Source of the DNA: Rubrobacter tropicus
Lineage (GTDB): Bacteria; Actinomycetota; Rubrobacteria; Rubrobacterales; Rubrobacteraceae
Assembly: GCF_011492945.1 (NCBI RefSeq)
Contig: NZ_CP045119.1
Location: 3,410,001 to 3,474,000, forward strand
DNA length: 64,000 nucleotides
Direction of reading: 5' to 3'
Position 1 is the first letter of the stretch; each line of letters starts with the position of its first letter. Both the position numbers and the translations under genes were made by a program. The notes under the pieces were generated by a model, which was not told the DNA's origin, did not search any database, and saw nothing but the letters and a program-made list of their open reading frames with translations. Shown one piece after another: positions 6,027 through 21,714 of the stretch.

Positions 6027-6939
6027 AGCGCCCCCCCTTGGTGAGGACGAACATCAGGGCCGTGGCGGCCAGAAGCAGCAGAACCAGAAACGAGGACATG
6101 GCCGCCGCGTAGCCGTAGTCGTTGAACTGGAACGCCTGCTGGTAGATGTAGAAGATGCCCAGCGAGGTAGAGTTGGCCGGGCCGCCCTTGGTCATCACGT
6201 AGATCAGGTCGAAGGCCTGCAGCCCCGCCACGCCGGTTATCGTCGAGACCAGCAACACGAAGAAGCTCGTCGGCTTCAGGAGGGGCCAGGTGATGTGCCT
6301 GAAGAGCTGCCAGCTTCTAGCCCCGTCTATCTTGGCCGCGTCGTAGTACTCCCGCGGTATCTCCTGCAGACCCGCCAGGAAGATGATCATGTAGTACCCC
6401 ATAAAGAACCAGATGCTCACGAGCACCACGGTCGCCAGCGCGAACTGCGGGTCCCCGAGCCACGAGCGGCCCCCGATCCCGACCGCCTCCAACACCTGGT
6501 TGACGACCCCGACCCCGTCCGTGAGCATGAACTGCCACACGAGCCCCACGACGACGAGGCTCACGACGTGCGGCAAAAAGAACATGCTGCGAAAGAACCC
6601 GACGAACGGGATCTTTTGCTGTACGAGCAACGCGAGCCCCAGGCTGACCACGAAGACCCCCACGACGAACCCCACAACGTAGGTTACCGTCACCTTGAGG
6701 CTGTCCAAGAACAGCGGGTCGACGAACATTTTCTTGTAGTTGTCCAGCCCGGCGAACGCTATCCCGCCGAAGCCGGTCACCTCGAAGAACCCGAGGCCCA
6801 GAGCGAGCACCATGGGCACCCCGAGAAAGACGAGCAAACCCAGGGCGTCCGGGGCCACGAAGAGCGCGGCGGCGAGCCACTCGCGATGTCTACGGTTGAG
6901 GCCCCGCCTGTAGTGGGTTTCGGAAGCCCCCGCGCTCAT
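6013..6939 (-). CDS. Carbohydrate ABC transporter permease, MalF/UgpA type
   Basis: A 308-residue CUT1 permease partner of the MalG-type protein. The first membrane helix is AALFVAPDALGLLVFLGVPMV and the EAA loop reads EYYDAAKIDGARSWQLFRHITWP. The C-terminal region has GGPANSTSLGIFYIYQQAF, common in UgpA-like proteins. Its ATG overlaps the stop of the binding-protein gene (ATGA) and its end overlaps the second permease, giving a tight transporter operon read leftward. Confidence 0.93.
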   Translation of the reverse strand: MSAGASETHYRRGLNRRHREWLAAALFVAPDALGLLVFLGVPMVLALGLGFFEVTGFGGIAFAGLDNYKKMFVDPLFLDSLKVTVTYVVGFVVGVFVVSLGLALLVQQKIPFVGFFRSMFFLPHVVSLVVVGLVWQFMLTDGVGVVNQVLEAVGIGGRSWLGDPQFALATVVLVSIWFFMGYYMIIFLAGLQEIPREYYDAAKIDGARSWQLFRHITWPLLKPTSFFVLLVSTITGVAGLQAFDLIYVMTKGGPANSTSLGIFYIYQQAFQFNDYGYAAAMSSFLVLLLLAATALMFVLTKGGRFETE

Positions 6940-8315
6940 ACGATGCGCGCCCCGTCGTAGGTCTGGAGGAACGTGTCGATCTTCTCGGCGGCGGCGTCGG
7001 CCTGGCCCTGGGCGCTCTGACCGTCGAGCTGAACGGCCTGGATGGCGTCGGAGACGGCCTTGTAGACCTCGGGCGTGTAGCGCGGCTCGCCCCGTCCGCC
7101 CGGGAACGCCTCCTCGCGGAAGAACTTCATCGGCCCCTCGTCGAAGGCGCCCTGCTGCTCGGCCTGCCGCTGCACGGACTTGCGGGGCGCCACGGTGCTA
7201 TCCGCGCCCGCGATCCAATCGACCCCCCGCCCGATGGAGGACTCGCTCATCGAGGCGAGCGCCCAGGCGCAGAACCTGCCCGCCTCCTCGGGGTTCTGCC
7301 CCTTGGAGTTGGCGACGAACGCCCAGCCGCCGAGGTCGGTGGTGTACTCCCCGCCAGGCGGCAGCGGGAGCTTGAAGGTGCCGTACTCGAAGTCGGGGGC
7401 GTTGGCCTCCAGCGCGGCCACGGCCCAGATGCCGCAGTTCTGGATCGCGGCGTGCCCCTGCGCGAGGTTGGCGACGATGTCGTTGGCGCCCGTGCCCAAA
7501 GCCTTGCGCGGCGCCACCCCACTCTCTATGGCGTCCTGCCAGAACTGGAGCGCCTGCACGGCGCCCTTGGAGTCGAAGGCGCTCTCGTTGCCCGAAGGGG
7601 CCACGGCGTCGCCGCCACCCTGCCACATGAACGGGTACCAGGTGAAGTTCTGGTAGTAGCCGGGGTTGGTGTCGAAGAGCAGGCCGAAGGTGTTGCCTTT
7701 CTTGAGCCTGCCGGCGACGTCCAATAACTGGTCCCAGGTCTCGGGTATGTCCGCTTCGGAGAGGCCGGCGTCCTCGAAGGCCTTGACGCTGTAGTACATC
7801 GCCATCGGCTCGACCTCCATGGGGATGCCGAAGATCTTGCCTTCTACCTCGCGGGTCGCCATGACGTTGGGGTAAAGGTCGTTTCTGGCCTCGTCTTCTA
7901 TGTACGGCGTGAGGTCCTGAAGTACACCACCGTTGTAATAGCGGAGGAAATCCCCCGGGCTGATTATGAAGAGGTCCGGCCCCTCGTTCGAGGAGAAAGC
8001 CGTCTGCAGCTTTGACCCGTTGAGGTACTCCGTGACGGGAATGTACTGCAACTCTATCTTCGTGTCGTGGCCCTGGTTCCAGCCCTTGACGGCGTCCTCG
8101 AACCACTTGCCCTGCGCCTCGACCTCGCCCCCCGGCCCGTAGAACTGCCAGAACTTGAGCGCGCCCGAGCCCGAGCCGCCCCCGCATCCGGAGAGCACCG
8201 TCAACCCGGGCCCCGTCACGGCCGCCGCGAACGCGAACGCAGCGCCCCTCGCCAGGAACCGCCGCCGGCTTATGCCCCCGGTCTCTTCCCTGCCCAGCTT
8301 CTCGATGCCCTTCAT
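6936..8315 (-). CDS. Extracellular sugar-binding lipoprotein (family 1)
   Basis: A 459-residue substrate-binding protein for the two permeases. The N terminus has a twin-arginine motif (SRRRFLARG, about residues 17-25), a hydrophobic stretch and a lipobox ending LSGC, predicting Tat export and lipid anchoring at the membrane's outer face. The mature part shows the family pattern LKFWQFYGPGGE, PDLFIISPGDFLRYY and AAIQNCGIWAVAALE. It is the first gene of the leftward cluster running to the FGGY kinase. The sugar is not readable from sequence; the neighbouring GH172 enzyme suggests a furanoside oligosaccharide. Confidence 0.92.
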   Translation of the reverse strand: MKGIEKLGREETGGISRRRFLARGAAFAFAAAVTGPGLTVLSGCGGGSGSGALKFWQFYGPGGEVEAQGKWFEDAVKGWNQGHDTKIELQYIPVTEYLNGSKLQTAFSSNEGPDLFIISPGDFLRYYNGGVLQDLTPYIEDEARNDLYPNVMATREVEGKIFGIPMEVEPMAMYYSVKAFEDAGLSEADIPETWDQLLDVAGRLKKGNTFGLLFDTNPGYYQNFTWYPFMWQGGGDAVAPSGNESAFDSKGAVQALQFWQDAIESGVAPRKALGTGANDIVANLAQGHAAIQNCGIWAVAALEANAPDFEYGTFKLPLPPGGEYTTDLGGWAFVANSKGQNPEEAGRFCAWALASMSESSIGRGVDWIAGADSTVAPRKSVQRQAEQQGAFDEGPMKFFREEAFPGGRGEPRYTPEVYKAVSDAIQAVQLDGQSAQGQADAAAEKIDTFLQTYDGARIV

Positions 8316-9483: not shown

Positions 9484-10203
9484 TTAGTGGTCCGAGCCGT
9501 TGACGCCGATGGTCGGGGGGCCGTCCTGCGCTTCGGGCAGGCGGCGGAACCAGGCCTCGACTTCGGCGATGTGCATTGTGGCGGCGGCGCGGGCGAGCTC
9601 TGAGTCCCTGTTGGCTATAGCGTCGTAGATAGCGTGGTGGGAGACTTTCGTGCGTTGTATAGCGTCTTCTTCGGCAAGGCCGCGCCAGATACGGGCGCGC
9701 ATGGTCCGGCCGTAGAGGTTCTGAAGGAACGCGGCCAGGGCCGCATTGCCGGTGGCGGTGGAGATCTCACCGTGAAACTCGTCGTCGGACTCGACCAGTT
9801 CTTCGACGCTTTCGGCAGCGTCCATGCGGCGCAGGGAATCGCGCAGGCGCGAGAGACCCTCGGGGGTCATACGGGCCGTGGCGAGGGCCGTGGCCGCGGG
9901 TTCGATCAGGCGCCGCACCTCGAAGAGCTCGACGAGGGCGCGGTTGCGCATGAAGTCCACGGCAAGGCTCATGGTCTCCAGGAGCTGGTGCGGCTCCAGG
10001 CTCGTCACGTAGGTTCCGTCACCCTGGCGCGTCTTGAGGACGCCGGCCATGATCAGGGCCCGCACGGCCTCCCGCAGCGAACTGCGCGAGAGGCCGAGCC
10101 GGGTCGCGAGCTCCGTCTCCTTGGGCAGCTTCTCTCCCGGACGGACCTGGCCCGAGAGGATCATCTGCTTTATTCCGTTTATCGCCTCATCGGTGACGGC
10201 CAA
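9484..10203 (-). CDS. FadR-type (FCD) GntR transcriptional regulator
   Basis: A 239-residue regulator: winged helix-turn-helix at residues 1-70 (LPKETELATRLGLSRSSLREAVRALIMAGVL, then RQGDGTYVTSL) and an all-helical FCD effector domain with likely metal ligands (ESDDEFHGEI, HHAIYDAI, HIAEVEAW). This group senses sugar acids and related carboxylates. Start is TTG at 10203, three bases after the upstream glycosidase stop, behind GGAG. It ends the leftward fucosidase operon, suggesting it answers to a catabolite of the released sugar. Confidence 0.9.
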   Translation of the reverse strand: MAVTDEAINGIKQMILSGQVRPGEKLPKETELATRLGLSRSSLREAVRALIMAGVLKTRQGDGTYVTSLEPHQLLETMSLAVDFMRNRALVELFEVRRLIEPAATALATARMTPEGLSRLRDSLRRMDAAESVEELVESDDEFHGEISTATGNAALAAFLQNLYGRTMRARIWRGLAEEDAIQRTKVSHHAIYDAIANRDSELARAAATMHIAEVEAWFRRLPEAQDGPPTIGVNGSDH

Positions 10204-10206
10204 GCT

Positions 10207-12255
10207 CTACTCCAGAACTATGACTGCGTGCGCCCCAACCGGAGGCGGTTCGATCCGAACGTATTCGCCCTCGACGGCGAAGCCCAGCTTCTCCCCCTCG
10301 GGAGCAAGGTATACCCGCTCGATGGATTCCCCACCCGTAAAGACTTCGACGCCAAGGCCCGAAGTCTCCCAGGACTGGTCCACGTGCTGTATCGGCTGCG
10401 TGGTGCGTCTCGGATGGTAGGCGACGAGATGCAAGATCTTCCGTCCCGAACGTCCCTCTTCCGCCGCCTGCTCGTGCAACGTCGCCTCGACCCACCCCGG
10501 CCCCGAGAGCTTGAGTAGCGGTTGCGGCAGGAAGCCCCTGAGCGCGTTCAATGCCATCTCCCTGTAGGCCCAGTAGTCGTGGTCGCGGTACGCCCCGAAG
10601 AGCGGGGCGGCGAGGTACAAGATGCTCTCGTTCTCGACCACGAGCGGAGAGTTCAGGGACTCGCCGACCGGGGCCTGGGCGTGGCTCGTGAAGTGCTCCC
10701 AGGTCCTGTCGAAGAGAGCCCGACGCAGGTCCCCACGTGCGGTCGCACCTTCGAGGCGGCGGACTACGTGCGCCCTGTTGTAGAAGACGTAGTCGTAGTC
10801 GGGCGCCAGCTCCGTGTGGCCGGCGAGGGCGTCGTCCGGGCGCAGGTAGCTCGGGACCGTGGGCGCGGGCCCCTCGTAGGCGACGGGCACGCCGTCGAGG
10901 GCGAACTCTCCACTCTCGGTATCGAGGGCCGCCGTACCGCTTAGGACGATCTTCCCGCCCGCGGAGATGAAACCCTCCAGCTTCTCGCGGAGATCGTCAT
11001 CCACCGTAAGGCCGTCGGGGAGGACGAGCGCCTTGTATGCGTCAAACGAATCGGCGGTCGGGTCCGTGATGTCGAACTGGATGGCGGCCTCGAGGAAGAG
11101 TTGGGCCGCGCCGTCCACGTCGGCCACGTGGGCGTTCATCGGTATGCTGCCGAGCAGCGAGGGCTCGTGGCCCGAGAGGATCGCGACCTCGGCGGTGGGC
11201 TTCGCGCCGCGCAGGAACGGCTCCAGCTTCTCGACGCGGCCGAAGGAGTGTTCGAGCAGGCGGTAGACGGCGGGGTCGAGGGTGCCCCCCGGGTGGAGCT
11301 GGTCGCCTACGGAGACCTCGCCCCCGGCGGCGACGATGGTGCCGCACTCGTAGTCGAGCTGGTCGCGGGTCTTGAGGCCGCCGAAGTCCGCCCAGGCCTT
11401 GTGGAAGCGGCCCGTCATGCCGAGGAAATTCACCCCGTAAGTGCGGGCCTGGCGGGCGACTACCGGGTAGTGGAGGTAGCCCCACAGCCCGGACGAGGTC
11501 GGGAGGCTCTCTATCTCGAAATGGGTCTGGTGCGGGAGCGTCTCGGCCATGCGGGGGTTGACGGTGCCGTTGTAGAAGATGGTGGCGTCCGGGACCTTCG
11601 CGCGAACGGCGCCGCTCATACGCCCGAGGAAGTCTCTCAACTTCTCCTCGGCGAACCGGAGCACGGCCGGCTCGTCATCGAGGTACACGCCGGCCTCGCG
11701 CATCCGTGCCTGGCCCCAGGGAGAGTAGTTCGGGAGGGGAAAGCAGATATCGAAAAAGAAGCCGTCAACCGCGTCGCCGTAACGCGCGCAGATCTCCTCC
11801 GTCTGCGCGATGAGGTAGTCTCCGTAGCCGGATGAGACGTCGAGGGTGCTCCAGCCCCAACCGCCCGTCAGGGGGGATTCGTTGGAGAGTGGAGGGCGGA
11901 TCATAAGCCCGCCGTCCTTGCGGGCGACGATCCAGCCGGGGTTCTTCTCGCCGGCGAGGTCGTCCCACATGACGCTCACGTAGATCGGGGCCCGTATCCC
12001 GGCGCCATGCAACGCCTCTATCTGCTGGCCCATCAAGTCCCCCACGACGAGGTTCGGGTGCGCGGTCCCGACCTCCGTCGGATAGTACGAGAAGCCGTGG
12101 TGGCACTTGGCGAAGACCGTCATCGAGTCCACGCGGCCCATCTTCGCCGTCCTGGCGAACGCCTCGGGGTCGAATGAGGCGCCGACGTCCTTGCAGTCGG
12201 CGGAGGTGTGAAAGTCCAGGTGGACCTGCCTGTAGCGGCGCTCGCTCACGATCAC
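10207..12255 (-). CDS. GH151-like alpha-L-fucosidase (GHL6 plus trimerisation domain)
   Basis: A 682-residue protein whose start (RYRQVHLDFHTS) and layout match the hypothetical glycosyl hydrolase 6 / GH151 family: an N-terminal TIM barrel (DGFFFDICFPLPNYSPW near residues 188-204, with FYNGTVNPRMAETL following), then a flavodoxin-like beta-galactosidase trimerisation domain (KALVLPDGLTVDDDL) and a C-terminal beta domain. Some GH151 enzymes are alpha-L-fucosidases. The GTG start overlaps the stop of the GH29 fucosidase gene (GTGA), supporting a joint role in removing L-fucose. No signal peptide, so cytosolic. Specific activity is inferred. Confidence 0.78.
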   Translation of the reverse strand: MIVSERRYRQVHLDFHTSADCKDVGASFDPEAFARTAKMGRVDSMTVFAKCHHGFSYYPTEVGTAHPNLVVGDLMGQQIEALHGAGIRAPIYVSVMWDDLAGEKNPGWIVARKDGGLMIRPPLSNESPLTGGWGWSTLDVSSGYGDYLIAQTEEICARYGDAVDGFFFDICFPLPNYSPWGQARMREAGVYLDDEPAVLRFAEEKLRDFLGRMSGAVRAKVPDATIFYNGTVNPRMAETLPHQTHFEIESLPTSSGLWGYLHYPVVARQARTYGVNFLGMTGRFHKAWADFGGLKTRDQLDYECGTIVAAGGEVSVGDQLHPGGTLDPAVYRLLEHSFGRVEKLEPFLRGAKPTAEVAILSGHEPSLLGSIPMNAHVADVDGAAQLFLEAAIQFDITDPTADSFDAYKALVLPDGLTVDDDLREKLEGFISAGGKIVLSGTAALDTESGEFALDGVPVAYEGPAPTVPSYLRPDDALAGHTELAPDYDYVFYNRAHVVRRLEGATARGDLRRALFDRTWEHFTSHAQAPVGESLNSPLVVENESILYLAAPLFGAYRDHDYWAYREMALNALRGFLPQPLLKLSGPGWVEATLHEQAAEEGRSGRKILHLVAYHPRRTTQPIQHVDQSWETSGLGVEVFTGGESIERVYLAPEGEKLGFAVEGEYVRIEPPPVGAHAVIVLE

Positions 12256-13541
12256 CCTTTCAAGAATAGCTCGACGACGGGAACCTCGACCATCGGCTTC
12301 TGCACGGGGAGTTCCAGGGTGAGGGTCCCGGATGGCAGGCCGCCCATCGTCGTGTTCTGGGCCCTCTGGTCCGGATCGACGACCAGCATCTTCACCTCCG
12401 ACGCGTCACCCAGTAGCTGGGCGTACTCGACGCGGCCCGCGAGTCCTTCGAGGTGGACGTGTTTAAATGGCCACCCGAAGAGGTGCAGGTAGAGGCGGTC
12501 GCCGTTCTGGGTGTAACGGCAATCGGGCGGCGGGATGAAGTCGCTCGCGGTGCAGCCGCGCACCGAGCGCCCGTGCAGACGCATCCACTCTCCCATGCCC
12601 CGTAACCTCTCGACGGCCTGCGGGTCGAACTCGCCGCGGCCTGTCGGCCCGACGTTCAGGAGCAGGTTCCCGCCCTTGGAGACCGTGTCGACGAGCATCC
12701 TGACGAGCATGCTCGTCGGCTTCCAGTCCAGGTTGTCCCTGTCGTAGCCCCAGGAGCCGTCGAGTGTCTGGCAGGCTTCCCAGAGGGCTGGTTCCCCGTC
12801 GACCTCGGGCCAGGCCACGGGCTGGTACTGCTCGGGGGTCTTGAGGTCGCCTCCTATCTCCAACCGGTCGTTGACGATGATTCCCGGCTGGAGCTCCCTT
12901 ACCATCGCCAGGAGTTCCTCGGAGCCCCAGTCGTCCTTTCCCTTGCCGCCCCACACCCGATCCGGATAGGAGAAGTCGAACCACATAACGTCTATCTTCC
13001 CGAAGCGGGTGAGCAGCTCGCGGGTCTGGCCGTGCAGGTACTCGCGGTAGCGGGCGACGTCGCGATGCCTGTTCGCCTCGATGTACTCTTCGTCGTCGCG
13101 CCTCGAGTGCAACCCGTCCACGGGGAACTCGGGGTGGTGCCAGTCTATGAGGGAGTGGTAGAAGCCGACCTTCAGGCCTTCCGCGCGAAACGCCTCGACC
13201 ATCGGGGCTATGAGGTCCTCGCCCCACGGGGTGTTCGTGACCTTGTAGTCGGTGAGGTCCGAGTCCCACAGGCAGAAGCCGTCGTGGTGCTTGGTGGTTA
13301 TGACGAAGTACTTCATCCCGGCCTTCTTCGCCTCCCTGGCCCACTCCTTCGGGTCGTAGAGGTCGGGATAGAAGTGGTCGAAGTACCTCTGGTAGTCCTC
13401 GTCCGTGATCCTCTCGCGCTGCTTCACCCACTCGTGGCGGGCGGCCAGGGAGTAGATGCCCCAGTGGATAAAGAGGCCGAAGCGGTCGCGGGTGAACCAT
13501 CCGGTGTCGGCGGTCGTGGGTCTTTGCATCTCTTGCGTCAT
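12252..13541 (-). CDS. Alpha-L-fucosidase, GH29
   Basis: A 429-residue GH29 enzyme. The signature runs WFTRDRFGLFIHWGIYSL, KYFVITTKHHDGFCLWDS, then IDVMWFDFSYPD, in which D189 is the expected nucleophile, and LLLNVGPTGRGEFDPQAVERL near the end of the barrel. A small C-terminal beta domain follows. It hydrolyses terminal alpha-L-fucosyl bonds with retention. No signal peptide is present, implying imported fuco-oligosaccharides as substrate. It is coupled to the GH151-like gene downstream and lies behind a full CUT1 importer. Confidence 0.95.
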   Translation of the reverse strand: MTQEMQRPTTADTGWFTRDRFGLFIHWGIYSLAARHEWVKQRERITDEDYQRYFDHFYPDLYDPKEWAREAKKAGMKYFVITTKHHDGFCLWDSDLTDYKVTNTPWGEDLIAPMVEAFRAEGLKVGFYHSLIDWHHPEFPVDGLHSRRDDEEYIEANRHRDVARYREYLHGQTRELLTRFGKIDVMWFDFSYPDRVWGGKGKDDWGSEELLAMVRELQPGIIVNDRLEIGGDLKTPEQYQPVAWPEVDGEPALWEACQTLDGSWGYDRDNLDWKPTSMLVRMLVDTVSKGGNLLLNVGPTGRGEFDPQAVERLRGMGEWMRLHGRSVRGCTASDFIPPPDCRYTQNGDRLYLHLFGWPFKHVHLEGLAGRVEYAQLLGDASEVKMLVVDPDQRAQNTTMGGLPSGTLTLELPVQKPMVEVPVVELFLKG

Positions 13542-13578: not shown

Positions 13579-14451
13579 CTACCGGCCGCCGAAGCCGGAC
13601 ATGGTTATGCCCCGGACGAACCAGCGCTGGGCGAGCAGGTAGACGATCACGGTCGGTATGGTGGCTATCGCGGCGGCTGCCATGAGAAGGTTCCAGTCGG
13701 TGCCGTACTGCCCCTGAAAGTTCCGCAGGCCCACGACGATAGGGACGGTCGCGTCGGAGTTCGAGACGACAAGCGGCCAGAGCAGGTTGTTCCAGTGAAA
13801 GAGGAAAGCAAAGACCGCCAGCGTCGCCATCGCCGGCCCCGAGAGCGGGAGGATTATCCGCCAGAAGCACCCGAAGCGGGTGGCGCCGTCGATGCGGGCC
13901 GCGTCCTCGAGCTCGCGCGGGATGGTCAGGAAGAACTGTCGCAAGAGGAAGACCCCGAACGCCGTAAACGCCTGCGGGATAATGAGGCCCTGGTAGGTGT
14001 CGACCCAGCCGAGCTCCTTTATCAGGATGAACTGCGGTATGACGGTGACTTGAGGCGGGATCATCAACGTCCCCAAATACAGCAAGAACAGCAGGTCGCG
14101 GCCCCGGAACTTCAGCCGGGCGAAGGCGTAGGCCGCAAGCGCCGAGGTAACCGTCTGGAGGATGGTGATCCCACCGACCATAACCATGCTGTTCATCAGG
14201 TACCGGCCGAAGGGCGCGAAGTTCCACGCCGCCACGAAGTTCTCCGGGTGCCACTCCCTCGGCCACCACGTCGGCGGGTTGGCCGCCACCTCCGGGGCCG
14301 ATTTGAAGGCCGTGAGGACCATCCACACTATCGGGACGAGCGTCAAAAACGCCATCGCGCACAGGGTTGCGTAGATGAGTATGGGCCAGTAGTTGCGGGT
14401 CACCGACGAAGGAGACCGCCCGCCCTTGAAGACCGTGTCTAGCAGGTTCAT
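13579..14451 (-). CDS. Carbohydrate ABC transporter permease, MalG type
   Basis: A 290-residue CUT1 permease. The chosen ATG at 14451 follows GGGGGAGGG directly and gives the usual N terminus (NYWPILIYATLCAMAFLTLVPIVWMVLTAFK); the frame is open further upstream, but that part overlaps the other permease. The EAA loop is ELEDAARIDGATRFGCFWRIILP. It pairs with the MalF-type gene eight bases upstream and delivers sugar for the fucosidases downstream. Confidence 0.93.
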   Translation of the reverse strand: MNLLDTVFKGGRSPSSVTRNYWPILIYATLCAMAFLTLVPIVWMVLTAFKSAPEVAANPPTWWPREWHPENFVAAWNFAPFGRYLMNSMVMVGGITILQTVTSALAAYAFARLKFRGRDLLFLLYLGTLMIPPQVTVIPQFILIKELGWVDTYQGLIIPQAFTAFGVFLLRQFFLTIPRELEDAARIDGATRFGCFWRIILPLSGPAMATLAVFAFLFHWNNLLWPLVVSNSDATVPIVVGLRNFQGQYGTDWNLLMAAAAIATIPTVIVYLLAQRWFVRGITMSGFGGR

Positions 14452-14459
14452 CCCTCCCC

Positions 14460-15371
14460 CTAATCGTAGGTGACCCAGCGGCGCTGGAAGATGAACTGGA
14501 CGACGGTGAAGACGAAGATCGCCGCGAAGAGGACCAGGGCAACCGCCGCCGCGTAGCCCATGTCGAAGGACTGGAAGCCCTTCTGGTAGATGTAGAGCAC
14601 GAGCGTCGTCGTCGACGTGCCGGGGCCTCCTCCCGTCATGACCAGGGCCTGATCGAAGACCTGGAACGAGGAGATAACCGAGATGACCACCACGAAGAAG
14701 GTAGTCGGAGAGAGGAGCGGGATCGTGACGTGCAAGAAGCGCCTCCACGACGTCGCCCCATCCACCTTGGCGGCGTCGTAGAGGTGTTCGGGGATGCCCT
14801 GGAGCCCGGCGAGGAAGAGGACCATGTTGTAGCCGAACCCCTTCCAGACGCTCATGATGATCAAGCCCGGCATCGCCCAGGTGCTGCTGGTCAACCAGGC
14901 CGGGCCCTCCAGGCCGACGATCCCGAGTGCGGAGTTGATCAGGCCGACGTCGGGCAGGTAGATCCACTTCCACACCAGCGAGAGCGCCACGGTGACGGTC
15001 ACGTACGGCAGGAGAAAGATGGACCGGAACGCCACGACCCCGCGCAAGGCCTGGTTTACGAGCATCGCGGTCGCGAGCCCGAGAACCACGGAGAGCGGCA
15101 CGCTCACGAGCGTGAAGTACACGGTGTTGAAGAGCGCTGCCCGAAAGACCTCGTCCTCGGTGAAGATCTCGCGGAAGTTCTCTAGCCCCGCGAAGCTCGC
15201 CCCCAGCAGCAAGTCGTAGTCGTAGAAGGCGAGGGCGAACGCGGCCCCGACCGGTATGGCCGTGAAGATGAGAAAGCCGATGAGGTTCGGCAACAGGAAG
15301 AGCCCCGCCGCCAACCCCTCGCGGTCGCGGCTGGACTTGACGCCGCCTCTCCTCCCGGTGTTGCCCGCCAC
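14460..15371 (-). CDS. Carbohydrate ABC transporter permease, MalF/UgpA type
   Basis: A 303-residue CUT1 permease with about six membrane helices (LFLLPNLIGFLIFTAIPVGAAF first). The EAA loop is HLYDAAKVDGATSWRRFLHVTIP and the family segment GGGPGTSTTTLVLYIYQKGF is present. The start is GTG at 15371. It lies ten bases after the binding-protein stop, within one leftward transporter-plus-fucosidase operon. Confidence 0.93.
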   Translation of the reverse strand: MAGNTGRRGGVKSSRDREGLAAGLFLLPNLIGFLIFTAIPVGAAFALAFYDYDLLLGASFAGLENFREIFTEDEVFRAALFNTVYFTLVSVPLSVVLGLATAMLVNQALRGVVAFRSIFLLPYVTVTVALSLVWKWIYLPDVGLINSALGIVGLEGPAWLTSSTWAMPGLIIMSVWKGFGYNMVLFLAGLQGIPEHLYDAAKVDGATSWRRFLHVTIPLLSPTTFFVVVISVISSFQVFDQALVMTGGGPGTSTTTLVLYIYQKGFQSFDMGYAAAVALVLFAAIFVFTVVQFIFQRRWVTYD

Positions 15372-15380
15372 GCGGTCCCC

Positions 15381-16712
15381 CTACCTGTCCAGGATCTCCT
15401 GGTGCTCCTGCAGCAGCTTGTCGAACTGCGGTTTGACCTTGTCGATGGTCTCCTGAACGCTCTGCTTTCCGAGAAAGACCGGGTTGAAGTCCCGCGTGAG
15501 CATGACCGTAGTCTCTTGCCAGGTCGTCGTCGTCTCGAAGGCCCTGGCCTCCCCGATCTCACCATTGAGGATGGCCTCCACGAGGTCCTCGTTGGGCGGC
15601 GGAGCTTCCGGGTTCTCGAAGGCCGGCACCGCTGACTCGCGGGCCGGATACCCACGACCGGCCTTCGCCGTCTTCTTGAGCGATGCGGTGCTGGTGAGCG
15701 TCTTCAAGGCTTCCCAGGCCGCCTCGGGGTTCTCGGTGTTGTTGGAGATGCCAAACCCGGAGCCCGCAGCCCAGGTCACGCTGCCGGCCGGGCCACTCGG
15801 GATGGGCGCGATACCCCACTCGAAGTCGGAGTTGGCGCCGATGTTGACGAACTGCCAGGGCCCGTCCACGTGCATGCCGATGTTGCCGCCGTAGAATTCC
15901 TCGACCCCGAAGTTCGGGTTCGCAAGGTCGGTGATGGGGGCGGCGATCTTATCCTCCGTGAACATGCTGACCACGAACTCGATAGCCTCTATGGACTCCG
16001 CCGAGTCGAGCGTACACTCCGTCTGACCGGCGTTCATGTAGTCTCCGCCGCCGGACCACAGCCAGGGTACGGTGGAGTCGAAGATCGGCTGCATGACGAA
16101 ACCGTAGCGGTCCCCGCCCGTCAACTCCGTGGCAGCCTGGCGGAACTCATCCCAACTCATCGGCTCCGTGGGCGACGGCGTAGGCACGCCCGCCTCGTCG
16201 AAGAGGGTCTTGTTGTAATAGAGCATGATCGGACCTATGTCATAGCCGAAGGCGTAGATCTCCCCATCCGAGGAGAGCCCGTCCCTTATGGGCTTGAAGA
16301 AGTCCTCGACGTCGAAACCGGGGTCATCGTCTATGAAAGGCTGCAGGGGTTGCAGGGCGCTCCTGGCCGCGAAACCGGGCATCCTGAGGCTCTGCATGGC
16401 GACCACGTCGGCCTCGTTCTCGCTGGCGAGCTGCGTGGAAAGCTTGTTCCAGTAGTCCTCGAACGTCGTCGTCTCGAGCTTTAGTGTGATCTCCGGGTTG
16501 GCCCGGTTGACGTCTTTCGCGAGGTCTTTCCATACCGCCGTCTCTTCAGGCGCCGCCGACCACATGGACCACCTGAGATCCCCGGAAGCTTCCCCGCCCC
16601 CACCGCAGGCCGCGGCCCCGAGCAGACTCATACCCGCCAGGCCAGCCCCGCCCACCCGCAGAAAATCCCGGCGGTTCATCTTTCTGCCACCAAACCGACG
16701 TCCCGCAATCAT
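15381..16712 (-). CDS. Extracellular sugar-binding lipoprotein (family 1)
   Basis: A 443-residue binding protein with a Tat-type signal (NRRDFLRVGGAGLAG) ending in a lipobox-like AAAC before a glycine run. Mature features: LRWSMWSAAPEETAVWKDL, FEDYWNKLSTQLASENEADVV and GGNIGMHVDGPWQFVNI. Two starts are possible: ATG at 16712 behind GGAGAAGGGAG, or ATG at 16679 (MNRRDF), which gives a standard-length signal. A strong promoter lies at 16809-16837. It heads the transporter-GH29-GH151-gntR operon and so probably binds fuco-oligosaccharides. Confidence 0.92.
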   Translation of the reverse strand: MIAGRRFGGRKMNRRDFLRVGGAGLAGMSLLGAAACGGGGEASGDLRWSMWSAAPEETAVWKDLAKDVNRANPEITLKLETTTFEDYWNKLSTQLASENEADVVAMQSLRMPGFAARSALQPLQPFIDDDPGFDVEDFFKPIRDGLSSDGEIYAFGYDIGPIMLYYNKTLFDEAGVPTPSPTEPMSWDEFRQAATELTGGDRYGFVMQPIFDSTVPWLWSGGGDYMNAGQTECTLDSAESIEAIEFVVSMFTEDKIAAPITDLANPNFGVEEFYGGNIGMHVDGPWQFVNIGANSDFEWGIAPIPSGPAGSVTWAAGSGFGISNNTENPEAAWEALKTLTSTASLKKTAKAGRGYPARESAVPAFENPEAPPPNEDLVEAILNGEIGEARAFETTTTWQETTVMLTRDFNPVFLGKQSVQETIDKVKPQFDKLLQEHQEILDR

Positions 16713-17009: not shown

Positions 17010-17636
17010 ATGAGAACGATACTCTGCTACGGGGACTCGAACACGTGGGGATCCGACCCGGAGACGGGGGAGCGGTTCTCGGAGGAGGTGCGCTGGCCCG
17101 GGGTGCTGGCGCGGGAGTTGGGGGACGGCTTCCGCGTCGTGGAGGAGGGGCTGTCCGGCAGGACGACGGTGCGGGACGACCCCATCGAGGGCGTCCACAA
17201 GAACGGCAGGACGTACTTGCGGGCGTGCCTCGAGTCCCATAAACCAATAGACCTCGTGACCGTCATGCTCGGGACCAACGATCTGAAGGAACGTTTCGGG
17301 GCCTCCGCGTCGGACATAGCGCAGGGGGCGGCGTCGCTCGCGGAGGAGATCCTGCGCAGCGGTTGCGGTCCCGGCGGCGGCGCTCCGGTGGTCCTCCTGA
17401 TGGCGCCTCCCCCGGTCGGAAAGCTGACGGACATGGCCGAAATGTTCGAGGGGTCCCGGGAGAAGTCCGCGCGTTTCGCCGGGCACTACCGGCGCTTCGC
17501 GGAGCAATACGGATGCGAGTTCCTGGACGCTGGGGCCGTGATCTCCTCCAGCGACATCGACGGCATCCACCTGGAAGCGGAAGAGCACCGCAAGCTGGGG
17601 GAGGCCGTCGCCGCGCGCGTCGAGGAGATTCTCTGA
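17010..17636 (+). CDS. SGNH/GDSL-family hydrolase
   Basis: A 208-residue esterase-fold protein. Block I is ILCYGDSNTWG (serine in GDS, residues 6-8), block III is VMLGTNDL, and the C-terminal catalytic pair is DGIHLEAEEH. Such enzymes deacylate sugars, lipids or thioesters. The ATG at 17010 follows AGGGAGG with good spacing. No signal peptide, so cytosolic action is likely, perhaps removing acetyl groups from imported sugars. Its stop overlaps the next start (TGATG). Confidence 0.88.
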   Translation: MRTILCYGDSNTWGSDPETGERFSEEVRWPGVLARELGDGFRVVEEGLSGRTTVRDDPIEGVHKNGRTYLRACLESHKPIDLVTVMLGTNDLKERFGASASDIAQGAASLAEEILRSGCGPGGGAPVVLLMAPPPVGKLTDMAEMFEGSREKSARFAGHYRRFAEQYGCEFLDAGAVISSSDIDGIHLEAEEHRKLGEAVAARVEEIL

Positions 17637-18802
17637 TGAGCGAGAACCTGAGGGTCCTGCTCGTCGGCGGCCCGATGTACGACCCGCTCTACGGGCGACT
17701 TTCGGAATTCGAGGAGGAGCACGGGGTGAACGTCGAGGTCGTCGTCGCCCCCACGCACCCCGACCTCAACGAGAGAATAGAGAGGGAGTACCGGTCGGGC
17801 GAAGCCGGGTACGACCTGATCTCCACGCACACCAAGTACGCCCCGAGCCAGAAGCAATGGCTCACCCCGCTCGACGACGACCTGTCGTCCTCGGAGCTGG
17901 AGCCCTTCAGCGAACGCCCCCTGGAGTTGGCACGCATAGACGGCGCGCTCTACAGCGTCCCGCGCAACCTGGACGTAAAGCTCCTTCTCTACCGCACCGA
18001 CCTCATGGAAGACCAGCCTTCCTCCTGGGAGGACCTGCGCGAGACGACCGCGCGTCTGCGGTCCGAGAACCTCTACGGGTTCGTTTTCCCGGGCAAGGAG
18101 TCGGGGCTCTTCGGACACTTCTTCGAGCTTCACGCGATGGCGGGCGGTGAGATGTTCGGGGAAGAAGGACCGCCCGCGCCGCGCATGGACGACGAGGCCG
18201 GTCGCTGGGCGCTCGGGCTGCTAAAAGACCTCTACGAGAACGCAGCCCCGAGGGAGACCCCCGACTGGCATTACGACGAGGTCGCCGCCTGTTTCAGGGA
18301 GGGCAAAGCAGCTATGTCCACAGACTGGCCCGGCGGCTTCTACACGTACGTCGATCCGGACAGCAGCGAGGTCGCCGGACGCTTCGACGTGGCGCTCTAC
18401 CCGGAGGGGAGCGCCGGCCGGCGCGTCTACTCCAGCTCCCACTCCTTCGCCATCCCGACGAGCGTCCGCGACCGCGCGGCGGCCATCGAGCTGTTGCGCT
18501 TTTTGACCTCGCGAGAATCGCAGGCTTATGAGGCGCGGCTCGGGACGTTGCCGGCGCGGGCCGACGCGCTGGAAGATGCACGCTCTCAGGCCGGTCCCGG
18601 GTCGTTGGAAGAGCGGAGGTGGGATCTCCTGGAGAGGGCCCAGGAATCGGCCCTGATCCCACCCAAGCACCCGAACTACCCGGCGGTGGAGGACGCCATC
18701 TGGGAGGGGATACGGGAAGTATTCACCAAGAACAAGAGCGTGGAAGACGCCCTGATGGAGACGGAAGCCGCGGCGGGGCGCGCGGCGGGCGGGGGACGAT
18801 GA
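17636..18802 (+). CDS. Family 1 solute-binding-like protein without signal peptide
   Basis: A 388-residue protein with the fold pattern of ABC sugar-binding proteins (LRVLLVGGPMYDPLYGRLSEFEEEHGVNV, EAGYDLISTHTKYAPSQKQW, YSVPRNLDVKLLLYRTDLME, GKAAMSTDWPGGFYTYV). The ATG overlaps the SGNH stop (TGATG), fixing the N terminus, and there is no hydrophobic leader, twin-arginine or lipobox. No permease is adjacent. Either it works in the cytosol as a sugar sensor or scavenger, or its export is lost or unusual. Followed after 34 bases by the fuconate dehydratase gene. Confidence 0.8.
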   Translation: MSENLRVLLVGGPMYDPLYGRLSEFEEEHGVNVEVVVAPTHPDLNERIEREYRSGEAGYDLISTHTKYAPSQKQWLTPLDDDLSSSELEPFSERPLELARIDGALYSVPRNLDVKLLLYRTDLMEDQPSSWEDLRETTARLRSENLYGFVFPGKESGLFGHFFELHAMAGGEMFGEEGPPAPRMDDEAGRWALGLLKDLYENAAPRETPDWHYDEVAACFREGKAAMSTDWPGGFYTYVDPDSSEVAGRFDVALYPEGSAGRRVYSSSHSFAIPTSVRDRAAAIELLRFLTSRESQAYEARLGTLPARADALEDARSQAGPGSLEERRWDLLERAQESALIPPKHPNYPAVEDAIWEGIREVFTKNKSVEDALMETEAAAGRAAGGGR

Positions 18803-18836: not shown

Positions 18837-20162
18837 ATGAGCCGGATCACCATAACCGAAGTCGTGGCCCGAGACGTCCGTTTCCCAACCTCCCACAACC
18901 TCGACGGCTCTGACGCCATGAACCCCGACCCTGACTACTCGGCCGCCTACGCCATCCTCAAGACGGATACGGGCCTCGAAGGGCACGGCCTCACCTTTAC
19001 CATCGGACGCGGTAACGAGCTGTGCGTCGCCGCCATAGAAGCACTCGCCCCCCTTCTCGTCGGCCGGACTCTGGAGTCGTTTACGGAGGACATGGGCGCC
19101 TTCTGGAGCCACGTCACGGGCGACAGCCAGCTTCGGTGGGTAGGCCCCGAGAAGGGCGTCATCCACCTCGCCACGGCGGCGGTGGTGAACGCCGTGTGGG
19201 ACCTCTACGCCAAGAGCGAGTGTAAGCCCCTCTGGAAGCTCCTCGTGGACATGAGCCCGGAGGAGTTGGTCCGCTGCGTCCCGTTCCGCTACATAACGGA
19301 CGCCATCACCCCCGAGGAGGCGCTGGAGATCCTGCGCGAGAACGAGGGGACGAAAGCCGAGCGCGAAGCGGAGATGCTGAGGGACGGTTTTCCCGCCTAC
19401 ACGACGAGCGCGGGCTGGCTCGGCTACCCCGACGAGAAGCTCAGGAGGTTATGCCGCGGGGCGGTAGAAGCGGGTTGGGAGCACGTCAAGATCAAGGTCG
19501 GCGTGGATATCGAGGACGACGCGCGCCGAGCCCGGATCGTGCGCGAGGAGATCGGCCCGAACCGGAAGCTCATGCTCGATGCGAACCAGGTCTGGGAGGT
19601 GGACGAAGCCATAGAGAACATGGAACGCCTCGCGGAGTTCGACCCGTGGTGGATCGAGGAGCCCACGAGCCCGGACGACGTGCTGGGCCACGCCGCCGTA
19701 GCCCGCGCCGTCTCCCCAGTCGGTGTCGCGACCGGCGAGCACTGCCAGAACCGCGTCCTCTTCAAGCAACTCTTCCAGGCGAACGCCATAAGCTTCTGCC
19801 AGATAGACGCCTGCCGCCTCGGCGGCGTCAACGAGGTCCTCGCCGTGCTCCTGATGGCGAAGAAGTTCGGGGTCCCGGTCTGCCCGCACGCGGGCGGCGT
19901 CGGCCTGTGCGAGTACGTGCAGCACCTGTCGATCTTCGATTACGTGGCCGTCGGCGCCTCGTTGGAGAACCGCGTCCTGGAGTACGTCGACCACCTGCAC
20001 GAACACTTCCTTGACCCCGTAGAGATAAAGAAAGGCAGCTACGTGCCACCCAAAAAACCGGGCTACAGCATAGAGATGAAGGCGGAATCGCTCGAAGAGT
20101 ACGAGTTTCCGACCGGCGCGGCGTGGTCGGCGAGGTTGGGGGCGCAGGGGACAACCCCCTAG
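18837..20162 (+). CDS. fucD: L-fuconate dehydratase (enolase superfamily)
   Basis: A 441-residue mandelate-racemase-group enzyme closely fitting L-fuconate dehydratase: TSHNLDGSDAMNPDPDYSAAY at the N terminus, YAKSECKPLWKLLVDMSPEEL, the KxK base HVKIKVGVD, metal ligands in MLDANQVW, WIEEPTSPDD and VATGEHCQN, and VPVCPHAGGVGLCEYVQHL. It removes water from L-fuconate to give 2-keto-3-deoxy-L-fuconate in the oxidative fucose route; characterised relatives also take D-arabinonate. ATG with a GGGAGAGG site. It is probably co-transcribed with the binding-like gene before it and the reductase after it. Confidence 0.9.
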   Translation: MSRITITEVVARDVRFPTSHNLDGSDAMNPDPDYSAAYAILKTDTGLEGHGLTFTIGRGNELCVAAIEALAPLLVGRTLESFTEDMGAFWSHVTGDSQLRWVGPEKGVIHLATAAVVNAVWDLYAKSECKPLWKLLVDMSPEELVRCVPFRYITDAITPEEALEILRENEGTKAEREAEMLRDGFPAYTTSAGWLGYPDEKLRRLCRGAVEAGWEHVKIKVGVDIEDDARRARIVREEIGPNRKLMLDANQVWEVDEAIENMERLAEFDPWWIEEPTSPDDVLGHAAVARAVSPVGVATGEHCQNRVLFKQLFQANAISFCQIDACRLGGVNEVLAVLLMAKKFGVPVCPHAGGVGLCEYVQHLSIFDYVAVGASLENRVLEYVDHLHEHFLDPVEIKKGSYVPPKKPGYSIEMKAESLEEYEFPTGAAWSARLGAQGTTP

Positions 20163-20225: not shown

Positions 20226-21173
20226 ATGACGAACGACGCGGCGAGGGGTGCGGCATCGAGGAAGCCCCTGGGAAGCACGGGCCTCTCGGTCTCCCCGCTG
20301 TGCATCGGGTGCGCCCCTTTAGGAGACATGCCGGAGACTTTCGAGTACGGGGTTGACGAAGACCGCGCTTTCAGGACGCTCGAAGCGGTCTTCGAGAGCC
20401 CCATCAACTTTCTCGACACCGCCGCCTCCTACGGCGACGGCGAGAGCGAGCGCCGCATCGGCGAGGTGCTCGGGAGGATGGGCGGTCTGCCAGAAGGCGT
20501 GGTGCTCGCCACCAAGGCCGACCGCGATCTTCGGACGGGCGAGTTCTCGGGGGATCAGATGCGCCGCTCCGTCGAACGCAGCCTGAACCTTCTGGGCCTC
20601 GACCGCCTGCAGCTCTGCTACTTGCACGACCCCGAGCACGAGAGCTTCGAGCACATAATGGCGCCGGGCGGCGCGGCGGAGGTTCTACAAGACCTCAAAG
20701 ACGAGGGCGTCATCGAGCATCTCGGGGTGGCGGGCGGGCCTATAGAACTCGAGATCCGGTACGTCCGGACCGGCCTTTTCGAAGCCGTCATCACCCACAA
20801 CCGCTACACCCTTCTCGACCGCAGCGCCGAACCCTTGCTCGACGTCGCGGCCGAAAGGGGCGTAGCACTCCTGAACGCGGCCCCCTACGGCAGCGGCATC
20901 CTCGCCAAGGGCCCCGACGCCTACTCCCGCTACGCGTACCGGGAAGCCTCCGGAGATATGGTCGAGAGGGTGCGGACAATGCAGAGAGTCTGTGAGGAGT
21001 TCGACGTGCCCCTCGCGGCGGCCGCCCTCCAGTTCTCGACGCGCGACCCCCGCGTCGCCTCGACCATCGTGGGCATCAGCCGTCCCGAGAGGGTGAAACA
21101 GACGATGGACCTCGCCGCGCGCGAGATACCAAACGAACTGTGGAGGGAGCTGGACGCCCCCTCCCACAGCTGA
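20226..21173 (+). CDS. Aldo/keto reductase, L-fucose (D-threo-aldose) dehydrogenase-like
   Basis: A 315-residue aldo/keto reductase: RKPLGSTGLSVSPLCIG, active-site region NFLDTAASYGDGESERRIG (Asp and Tyr), lysine in VVLATKAD, histidine in LQLCYLHDPE and the cofactor-binding STIVGISRPERV. The family includes the D-threo-aldose/L-fucose dehydrogenases that oxidise the sugar at C1. The dehydratase for the expected next intermediate lies just upstream, which supports that role; a lactonase is not evident nearby. Start ATG at 20226 behind GAGGGAGG. Confidence 0.85.
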   Translation: MTNDAARGAASRKPLGSTGLSVSPLCIGCAPLGDMPETFEYGVDEDRAFRTLEAVFESPINFLDTAASYGDGESERRIGEVLGRMGGLPEGVVLATKADRDLRTGEFSGDQMRRSVERSLNLLGLDRLQLCYLHDPEHESFEHIMAPGGAAEVLQDLKDEGVIEHLGVAGGPIELEIRYVRTGLFEAVITHNRYTLLDRSAEPLLDVAAERGVALLNAAPYGSGILAKGPDAYSRYAYREASGDMVERVRTMQRVCEEFDVPLAAAALQFSTRDPRVASTIVGISRPERVKQTMDLAAREIPNELWRELDAPSHS

Positions 21174-21202: not shown

Positions 21203-21634
21203 TTATTGGACGATGATCCGCGAGCAACCCGCCACCGCTTCGGCGCGGGCGTCCACGAAGCACTTGTCCCTGCCCTTGCCGCCGAAGATCCTGTCTCGGG
21301 TGTCGCCGTCGTCGACGTAGATCAGGTCGAAGCCAGAGGTGCCCCTTATTACGTCCCTGTCGTTGCCGTAGGCGTTGGCCCTCACCTGGTCGTCGCCGCC
21401 CCTGAGGATGATCCTGTCCTGCTTGCCGTTGCCGATCCGCTCGAAGACGAGATCGTCGTTGCCCGTCGCTATGCAGGGAACTCCCGTGCATTGGATCCTC
21501 TGGTTGCCCGCCTTGATGACTGAAACGCCGTCCTCTTTCGTCGTCCCTGCCGACCCGTCCTGGGCGAACACGGCCCCCGCCCCAAGCGCCATCAGCGCCG
21601 CCACCAGAGCCGACACCACAACTATCCTGCGCAT
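21203..21634 (-). CDS. Secreted protein with degenerate RTX-like repeats
   Basis: A 143-residue exported protein: signal peptide MRRIVVVSALVAALMALGAG ending near AQDG, then acidic glycine/aspartate-rich repeats (ATGNDDLVF, LRGGDDQVR, DDGDTRDRIFGGKGRDKC) like worn calcium-binding hemolysin repeats. Four cysteines may form disulfides. ATG at 21634 follows GAGGAGG; a longer frame upstream lacks a start signal. It shares a bipartite promoter-like box with the RTX-like gene at 52,420. Function unknown; an extracellular calcium-binding role is inferred. Confidence 0.72.
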   Translation of the reverse strand: MRRIVVVSALVAALMALGAGAVFAQDGSAGTTKEDGVSVIKAGNQRIQCTGVPCIATGNDDLVFERIGNGKQDRIILRGGDDQVRANAYGNDRDVIRGTSGFDLIYVDDGDTRDRIFGGKGRDKCFVDARAEAVAGCSRIIVQ

Positions 21635-21673
21635 CCATTCCTCCTCGCTTCGAGACCACTGGCACCCCGCACG

Positions 21674-21714
21674 ATACCCACGGCGCCCGGCCGGCGTATC
21701 ACACAAATGGACCA
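21674..21714 (-). promoter_or_regulatory. Bipartite box shared with the 53-kb RTX-like gene
   Basis: On the minus strand TGGTCCATTTGTGTGAT (21714-21698), then 18 bases, then GGGTAT (21679-21674), 39 bases before the ATG. The second RTX-like gene has the same box with one change, the same 18-base gap and GGGCAT. GGGTAT resembles the -10 of stress-sigma promoters. Confidence 0.6.

Follow-up and report, generated by a model that had tools for sequence, protein, structure and literature searches.

A solute-binding protein without export signal that probably serves L-fucose catabolism in the cytosol of Rubrobacter tropicus and other bacteria

Introduction

Annotation pipelines read solute-binding proteins (SBPs) as exported parts of importers. 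What does such a protein do when it carries no export signal and is encoded among sugar enzymes of the cytosol? This question is raised by a gene of Rubrobacter tropicus, contained in the 64,000-nucleotide stretch of DNA that we analysed (the window). Its product, which we call cytSBP, had been described in the first-pass annotation as a sugar-binding protein without a leader, with no permease adjacent and coupled to an SGNH hydrolase. Neither a cytosolic sugar SBP of this kind nor an experiment on cytSBP was found in the open literature, searched by titles and abstract openings, with subscription journals mostly outside its scope.

The neighbouring genes include one for L-fuconate dehydratase (FucD). 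According to PMC13406643, the oxidative L-fucose pathway requires a dehydrogenase, a lactonase and L-fuconate dehydratase, together with a second dehydrogenase and a hydrolase; L-fucono-1,5-lactone can convert into the 1,4-lactone, which hydrolyses slowly. An L-fucono-1,5-lactonase (Hobbs 2013) is cited there and in PMC11378808.

Results

The cytSBP gene follows the SGNH hydrolase gene directly (Table 1). As had been claimed, its start is fixed by a TGATG overlap, the ATG (17636-17638) overlapping the SGNH stop codon TGA (17634-17636), and a GAGGAG at 17622-17627 lies 8 bases 5' of this ATG. Upstream, the frame continues without a stop for 91 codons, as far as a TTG at 17363; it is a shadow of the SGNH gene, rich in Arg, Gly and Pro, and has no hydrophobic run. 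Because of this, and because the leader is absent family-wide, an upstream start, a frame error and a contig-edge artefact were ruled out. The contrast that had been drawn with two exported binding proteins nearby was borne out, as both have Tat/lipoprotein-like leaders when judged by eye. A divergent operon, with a CUT1-type importer, a GH29 enzyme and a GHL6-type protein, begins about 300 bp from the SGNH gene; the statement that no permease is adjacent is therefore right for the cytSBP operon and wrong for its neighbourhood. On the other side, at 21203-21706 (minus strand), a small protein begins with what resembles a signal peptide and carries repeated acidic-glycine motifs that look RTX-like by eye.

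Table 1. Genes in and around the cytSBP operon of the window
Feature	Position	Strand	Basis
Exported binding protein, Tat/lipoprotein-like leader	6936..8315	-	leader by eye
GntR/FCD regulator	9484..10203	-	
GHL6-type glycoside hydrolase-like protein	10207..12255	-	Pfam GHL6, E 2e-26
GH29 alpha-L-fucosidase	12252..13541	-	Pfam Alpha_L_fucos, E 1e-90
ABC importer permease	13579..14460	-	BPD_transp_1, E 7e-18
ABC importer permease	14460..15371	-	translation; clusters with permeases
Sugar-binding protein of the divergent importer, exported, Tat/lipoprotein-like leader	15381..16712	-	translation, leader by eye
SGNH/GDSL hydrolase, stop overlapping the cytSBP start	17010..17636	+	Pfam Lipase_GDSL_2, E 2e-20
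cytSBP (SBP-fold protein, 388 aa, without signal)	17636..18802	+	ORF, Pfam, fold model, family leader test
L-fuconate dehydratase (FucD, enolase superfamily)	18837..20162	+	MR_MLE_C/N; plasmid matches about 60-78% identical, so annotated where named
Aldo/keto reductase, likely L-fucose dehydrogenase	20226..21173	+	Pfam Aldo_ket_red, E 4e-43; function suggested by cluster context

The reading as a sugar-binding protein proved sound. cytSBP matches SBP_bac_8 (E 1e-25) and SBP_bac_1 (E 4e-24), scoring 91.5 and 86.6 bits for the two profiles against curated cut-offs of 27 and 26; Pfam lists SBP families only, and the profile of the COG3618 lactonase family (Amidohydro_2) is not matched. In an AlphaFold2 model built from 69 sequences (pLDDT 96, pTM 0.93), cytSBP is a full maltose-binding-type solute-binding fold of two lobes, whose first strand, residues 4-10, leaves no room for a leader. 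Foldseek and VIA-align group the model with sugar-bound CUT1 binding proteins: TM is 0.89 to Thermotoga maritima MalE3 (6dtq, Foldseek), and VIA Z scores are 46-47 over 375-380 residues for sugar-bound forms, with 47 over 377-378 residues for the Thermus alpha-glycoside-binding protein. MalE3, the latter protein (6j9w) and the Thermococcus trehalose/maltose-binding protein TMBP (1eu8) have the fold and family of cytSBP (TM 0.89-0.90, 22-24% identity); unlike cytSBP, they are exported importer parts with disaccharide ligands.

Is the missing signal a property of this gene or of its family? We scanned 84,980 species genomes with the family alignment and retained 80 loci out of the 94 relatives that this yielded. 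Because the scan relied on motifs taken from the cytosolic clade, it could not pick up exported relatives without these motifs. The loci come from Rubrobacteraceae, Armatimonadota, Thermaceae, Acidobacteriota, Latescibacterota, Planctomycetota, Chloroflexota, Paenibacillaceae, Acidimicrobiia, Binatota and Myxococcota. One locus labelled as a Bifidobacterium breve MAG (L098) resembles the neighbouring Actinobacteria MAG loci L102-L104, and its bin label is probably wrong. With frames extended upstream to a stop or contig edge, none of the 81 proteins (80 loci and the window) has a signal-like leader, one of them (L030) being uninformative since it starts at a contig edge. In 33 of the 81 the upstream frame shuts within 18 codons of the core, and 52 have no in-frame start able to yield a leader of 15-75 aa. 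The check proposed in the first-pass annotation, a search for homologues also lacking signals, thus came out in its favour, and absence across the whole family excludes a sequencing error at the start.

The leader test itself, at a threshold of 1.8, was passed by eight of nine exported relatives and failed by both exported proteins of the window, with values of 1.59 and 1.78; the top cytosolic value on a similar 10-residue hydrophobic scan was 1.49 (L081). The separation of cytosolic from exported proteins by leader value is clear, yet does not rest on the threshold alone. A protein search of 396 Actinomycetota genomes returned 16 with a match at E 1e-40. Two of these matches (L023, L024; 30-32% identity) have lipoprotein leaders and fall outside the cytosolic clade, and the remaining 14 have no leader, although in one of them (L013) the contig ends before the start of the gene is reached.

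A tree was built from 53 rows, of which 32 are cytosolic (the window and 31 loci out of the 80). These 32 group together as a single clade (SH-aLRT 93), whose sister group consists of exported SBPs from alpha-proteobacterial L-fucose-type import operons and the two lipoproteins (joint branch 99). A single loss of the signal peptide would fit this tree. The exported sisters (Roseibium L105, Sinorhizobium meliloti L106, Ruegeria L107, Thalassospira L148, Nitratireductor L149 and Martelella L150) are about 28-30% identical to cytSBP over nearly the full length and likewise have pathway genes alongside; unlike cytSBP, they have signal peptides, adjoining permeases and an ATPase, and a lactonase and mutarotase in their operons. 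These operons hold the importer, L-fuconate dehydratase, an SDR, an FAH hydrolase, an amidohydrolase and a mutarotase, a content which suggests that L-fucose is the substrate of the sister importers. ABC systems of the same pathway, which may or may not include the sister proteins found here, are predicted to import L-fucose in PMC5507952 and PMC11378808.

Conserved residues were compared between 69 cytosolic rows (alignment A2: 68 loci plus the window, after removal of L058 and L077, with one and two stop codons inside the match, and of ten near-duplicate or partial rows) and nine exported relatives. Fifty-three columns are at least 93% conserved in the cytosolic rows, of which 30 are shared with the exported proteins, 10 partly shared and 13 cytosolic only; 27 columns are invariant. 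Those in common include G12, Y15, H65, R110, D113, D214, W231 and P232, all but D214 and P232 being noted in the alpha-proteobacterial sisters, and the cytosolic-only ones include N45, T64, K67, Y68, Q72, S156, F159, Y265 and E352. K67 and S156 are present in 69 of 69 cytosolic rows and are Ser and Glu in the exported relatives; N45 is Asp in the alpha-proteobacterial sisters. By profile alignment, W231 corresponds to the Trp of 'NWPYAW' in Thermococcus TMBP. Judging from work on maltose-binding proteins, the sugar cleft should be lined by this Trp together with two loops, one around residues 65-67 and the other around 153-157. K67 and S156 sit in loops that should face each other, and could look like a gained catalytic pair.

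Which genes accompany cytSBP? Gene calls in the 80 loci were weighted by homology and are not those of a true gene finder. That the neighbours are cytosolic sugar enzymes, as first described, agrees with FucD and the aldo/keto reductase (AKR) in the window and extends to the family: 63 of 80 loci have a dehydrogenase of the SDR, AKR, NAD-epimerase or zinc ADH type no more than three genes away, and the count rises to 70 when enolase-superfamily dehydratases are included. At 57 loci cytSBP has an oxidoreductase or enolase gene as a neighbour on its own strand, at most 150 bp away. Seven of the ten loci with neither enzyme have less than 1.2 kb on at least one side; another (L065) is flanked by 10 kb on each side. 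True FucD orthologues occur at 31 loci; with distant relatives from the enolase superfamily counted as well, the number is 49. The SGNH hydrolase stands beside cytSBP at 5 of 80 loci, so its coupling holds for Rubrobacteraceae-type loci and was rejected as a general rule. The lasting partners of cytSBP are a sugar dehydrogenase (AKR/SDR) and L-fuconate dehydratase; the operon of Meiothermus luteus (L048), for instance, has an importer, cytSBP, FucD, an AKR, an SDR and an FAH protein, with no lactonase found there. To tie cytSBP to FucD alone would be too narrow a view, as it is also encoded at loci that have L-fucose isomerase or that lack FucD. Further loci hold L-fucose isomerase (by Pfam, in one representative), an FGGY-like kinase (by eye) or a GH29 fucosidase, which makes L-fucose, and not one route, the common theme.

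In Paenibacillus and Cohnella (L053, L056, L058, L063, L064, L066, L073, L074, L078 and L081), the enolase by cytSBP is only about 30% identical to FucD; the acid-sugar dehydratase, and perhaps the sugar, may therefore differ. On a 3374-base contig of a Rubrobacteraceae MAG (L012/L028), an 819-codon frame runs from cytSBP residues 1-370 straight into an aldo/keto reductase with no stop. This may be a gene fusion that exists in nature, or else an artefact of assembly or deletion; if real, it would speak for a partnership of cytSBP with the dehydrogenase.

Permeases lie within three genes at 13 of the 80 loci, always with a separate exported binding protein, and cytSBP was thus rejected as an importer's own binding protein. 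Both marks of the CUT1-type sugar SBPs beyond fold and family, export by a signal peptide and cognate permeases alongside, are hence absent. Regulators within three genes belong to a GntR cluster (10 of 80), a second GntR cluster (3) and a LacI cluster (3), and no regulator type is common to the loci.

The COG3618-type L-fuconolactonase, whose sequence family is unrelated to cytSBP, was found at one of the 80 loci, and an L-rhamnose-type (RhaM) mutarotase at none of them and in none of ten whole cytSBP genomes. The single exception is a Thermaceae MAG (MAG015, locus L041), with the lactonase at +6284 from the cytSBP start. Among 86 regions with true FucD, at least two of which look like double-counted loci (L033/L144 and L035/L143), the lactonase is present in 1 of 38 with cytSBP vs 21 of 48 without (Fisher 9e-6), and the mutarotase in 0 of 38 vs 9 of 48 (Fisher 4e-3), the rows in both comparisons not being independent. 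A mutarotase is present in 9 of the 14 plasmid FucD regions, a non-random sample (8 chosen by genus from 309 records, 6 from 95). FucD occurs in 39 of the 396 Actinomycetota genomes: 20 also have the lactonase, 12 also cytSBP, none both and seven neither (Fisher 1.3e-5; 10 of the 12 with cytSBP are from one family). After phylogenetic control on a FucD tree of 76 regions, ten short-flank FucD regions being left out, the mutual exclusivity of lactonase and cytSBP is not significant; the presence of cytSBP differs in no more than three supported independent pairs, too few for a sign test to reach significance.

The lactone step may have other solutions. An SMP-30-type protein, which could be a lactonase, is encoded in five of the ten cytSBP genomes, the window's included, and the window's SGNH hydrolase could also be the lactonase. 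The other five have neither the COG3618 nor the SMP-30 type, among them two single-contig genomes (G016, G027) with FucD and cytSBP. Given the seven FucD genomes with neither gene, the step may be spontaneous or done otherwise. G004 and G015 have cytSBP and no FucD match at E 1e-130, and the L-fucose isomerase route needs no lactonase. Three Rubrobacteraceae genomes that are 96-99% complete (G009, G021 and G029; L110-L112) have FucD and neither cytSBP nor a COG3618 lactonase.

Discussion

Our results make it very probable that cytSBP is a cytosolic member of the L-fucose pathway. We propose that it is a cytosolic offshoot of the L-fucose-type SBPs which would have lost its signal peptide once, kept the two-lobed sugar cleft and become a regular part of L-fucose operons, for the most part those of the oxidative route (L-fucose to L-fuconolactone, L-fuconate and 2-keto-3-deoxy-L-fuconate). 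Its ligand, step and catalysis are what we infer from this setting. The sister clade and the operon context suggest that it binds L-fucose, and it would act between the dehydrogenase and L-fuconate dehydratase, on L-fucose or L-fuconolactone. A cytosolic role in converting the sugar or its lactone is a serious possibility, though short of an even one. Its likeliest action would be lactone hydrolysis, in place of the amidohydrolase-type L-fuconolactonase, to which the exclusivity of the two genes may point; as this is not significant after phylogenetic control, catalysis by cytSBP is put forward as a hypothesis. The full version, in which an L-fucose importer's SBP lost its signal, gained K67 and S156 in the cleft and replaced the amidohydrolase lactonase in many phyla as a new enzyme of the maltose-binding-protein fold, is rather doubtful as a whole. 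There is a precedent in PMC7683729, where cyclohexadienyl dehydratase is an enzyme evolved from an SBP; it differs from cytSBP in its descent from an amino-acid SBP and in its substrate and reaction.

Nearly as likely as a converting role is that cytSBP is a non-catalytic binder of L-fucose (or of fuconolactone or fuconate) in the cytosol, serving as a buffer, as a channelling partner of the dehydrogenase or as a ligand sensor for a separate regulator; we consider this appreciably plausible, if somewhat less than an even chance. The whole SBP fold matches sugar-bound forms, conserved residues are held in common with exported relatives, a dehydrogenase is mostly close by, and GntR or LacI regulators are close at some loci. 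However, there is no regulator type common to the loci, the changes at K67 and S156 would be needless for keeping the ligand of the exported relatives, and the near-absence of lactonase and mutarotase would be left unexplained. Since these two usual enzymes are nearly always missing from the clusters, an enzymatic role is at least as likely as that of a sensor or holder. The same absence of RhaM-type mutarotases, present in most of the plasmid FucD regions, could suggest that cytSBP is an SBP-fold L-fucose mutarotase supplying the beta anomer to the dehydrogenase. This is improbable, as Actinomycetota FucD clusters with the lactonase also have no such mutarotase, and its absence is therefore not special to cytSBP.

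Two further readings make cytSBP an importer part, present or past. Its fold and family, and the divergent importer next door, would suit an ordinary importer SBP with a missed start, a leader lost by error or non-classical export. With no leader in the family, no start for one in most of its members, and permeases that come with exported SBPs of their own, this reading is largely refuted for the family and stands at a very low probability. Least probable of all is a decaying transporter relic: internal stops occur at two loci, but 78 of 80, from many phyla, are free of them and the invariant columns argue against decay. We return to lactone or sugar conversion, with cytosolic binding close behind it, as the preferred reading.

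By its sequences the cytSBP clade, spread over many phyla, is cytosolic, and its genes go with a single catabolic pathway; "extracellular solute-binding protein" would therefore misname it. If catalytic, cytSBP would be another binding protein turned enzyme, filling a missing step of oxidative L-fucose degradation; if non-catalytic, it would represent a type of sugar holder or sensor in the cytosol that our literature search did not find.

Finally, a second, unrelated family of signal-less SBP-like proteins (369-378 aa) lies in alpha-proteobacterial L-fucose clusters (L105:7813-8949, L149:5761-6891 and L150:2755-3864), beside a CaiB/BaiF CoA-transferase and without an adjoining permease; MaoC is also near in L105 and L150. 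The L105 copy matches SBP_bac_8 just above the cut-off, and its GTG start overlaps the stop of the CoA-transferase. This family forms a long branch of its own, so export may have been lost more than once in sugar clusters.
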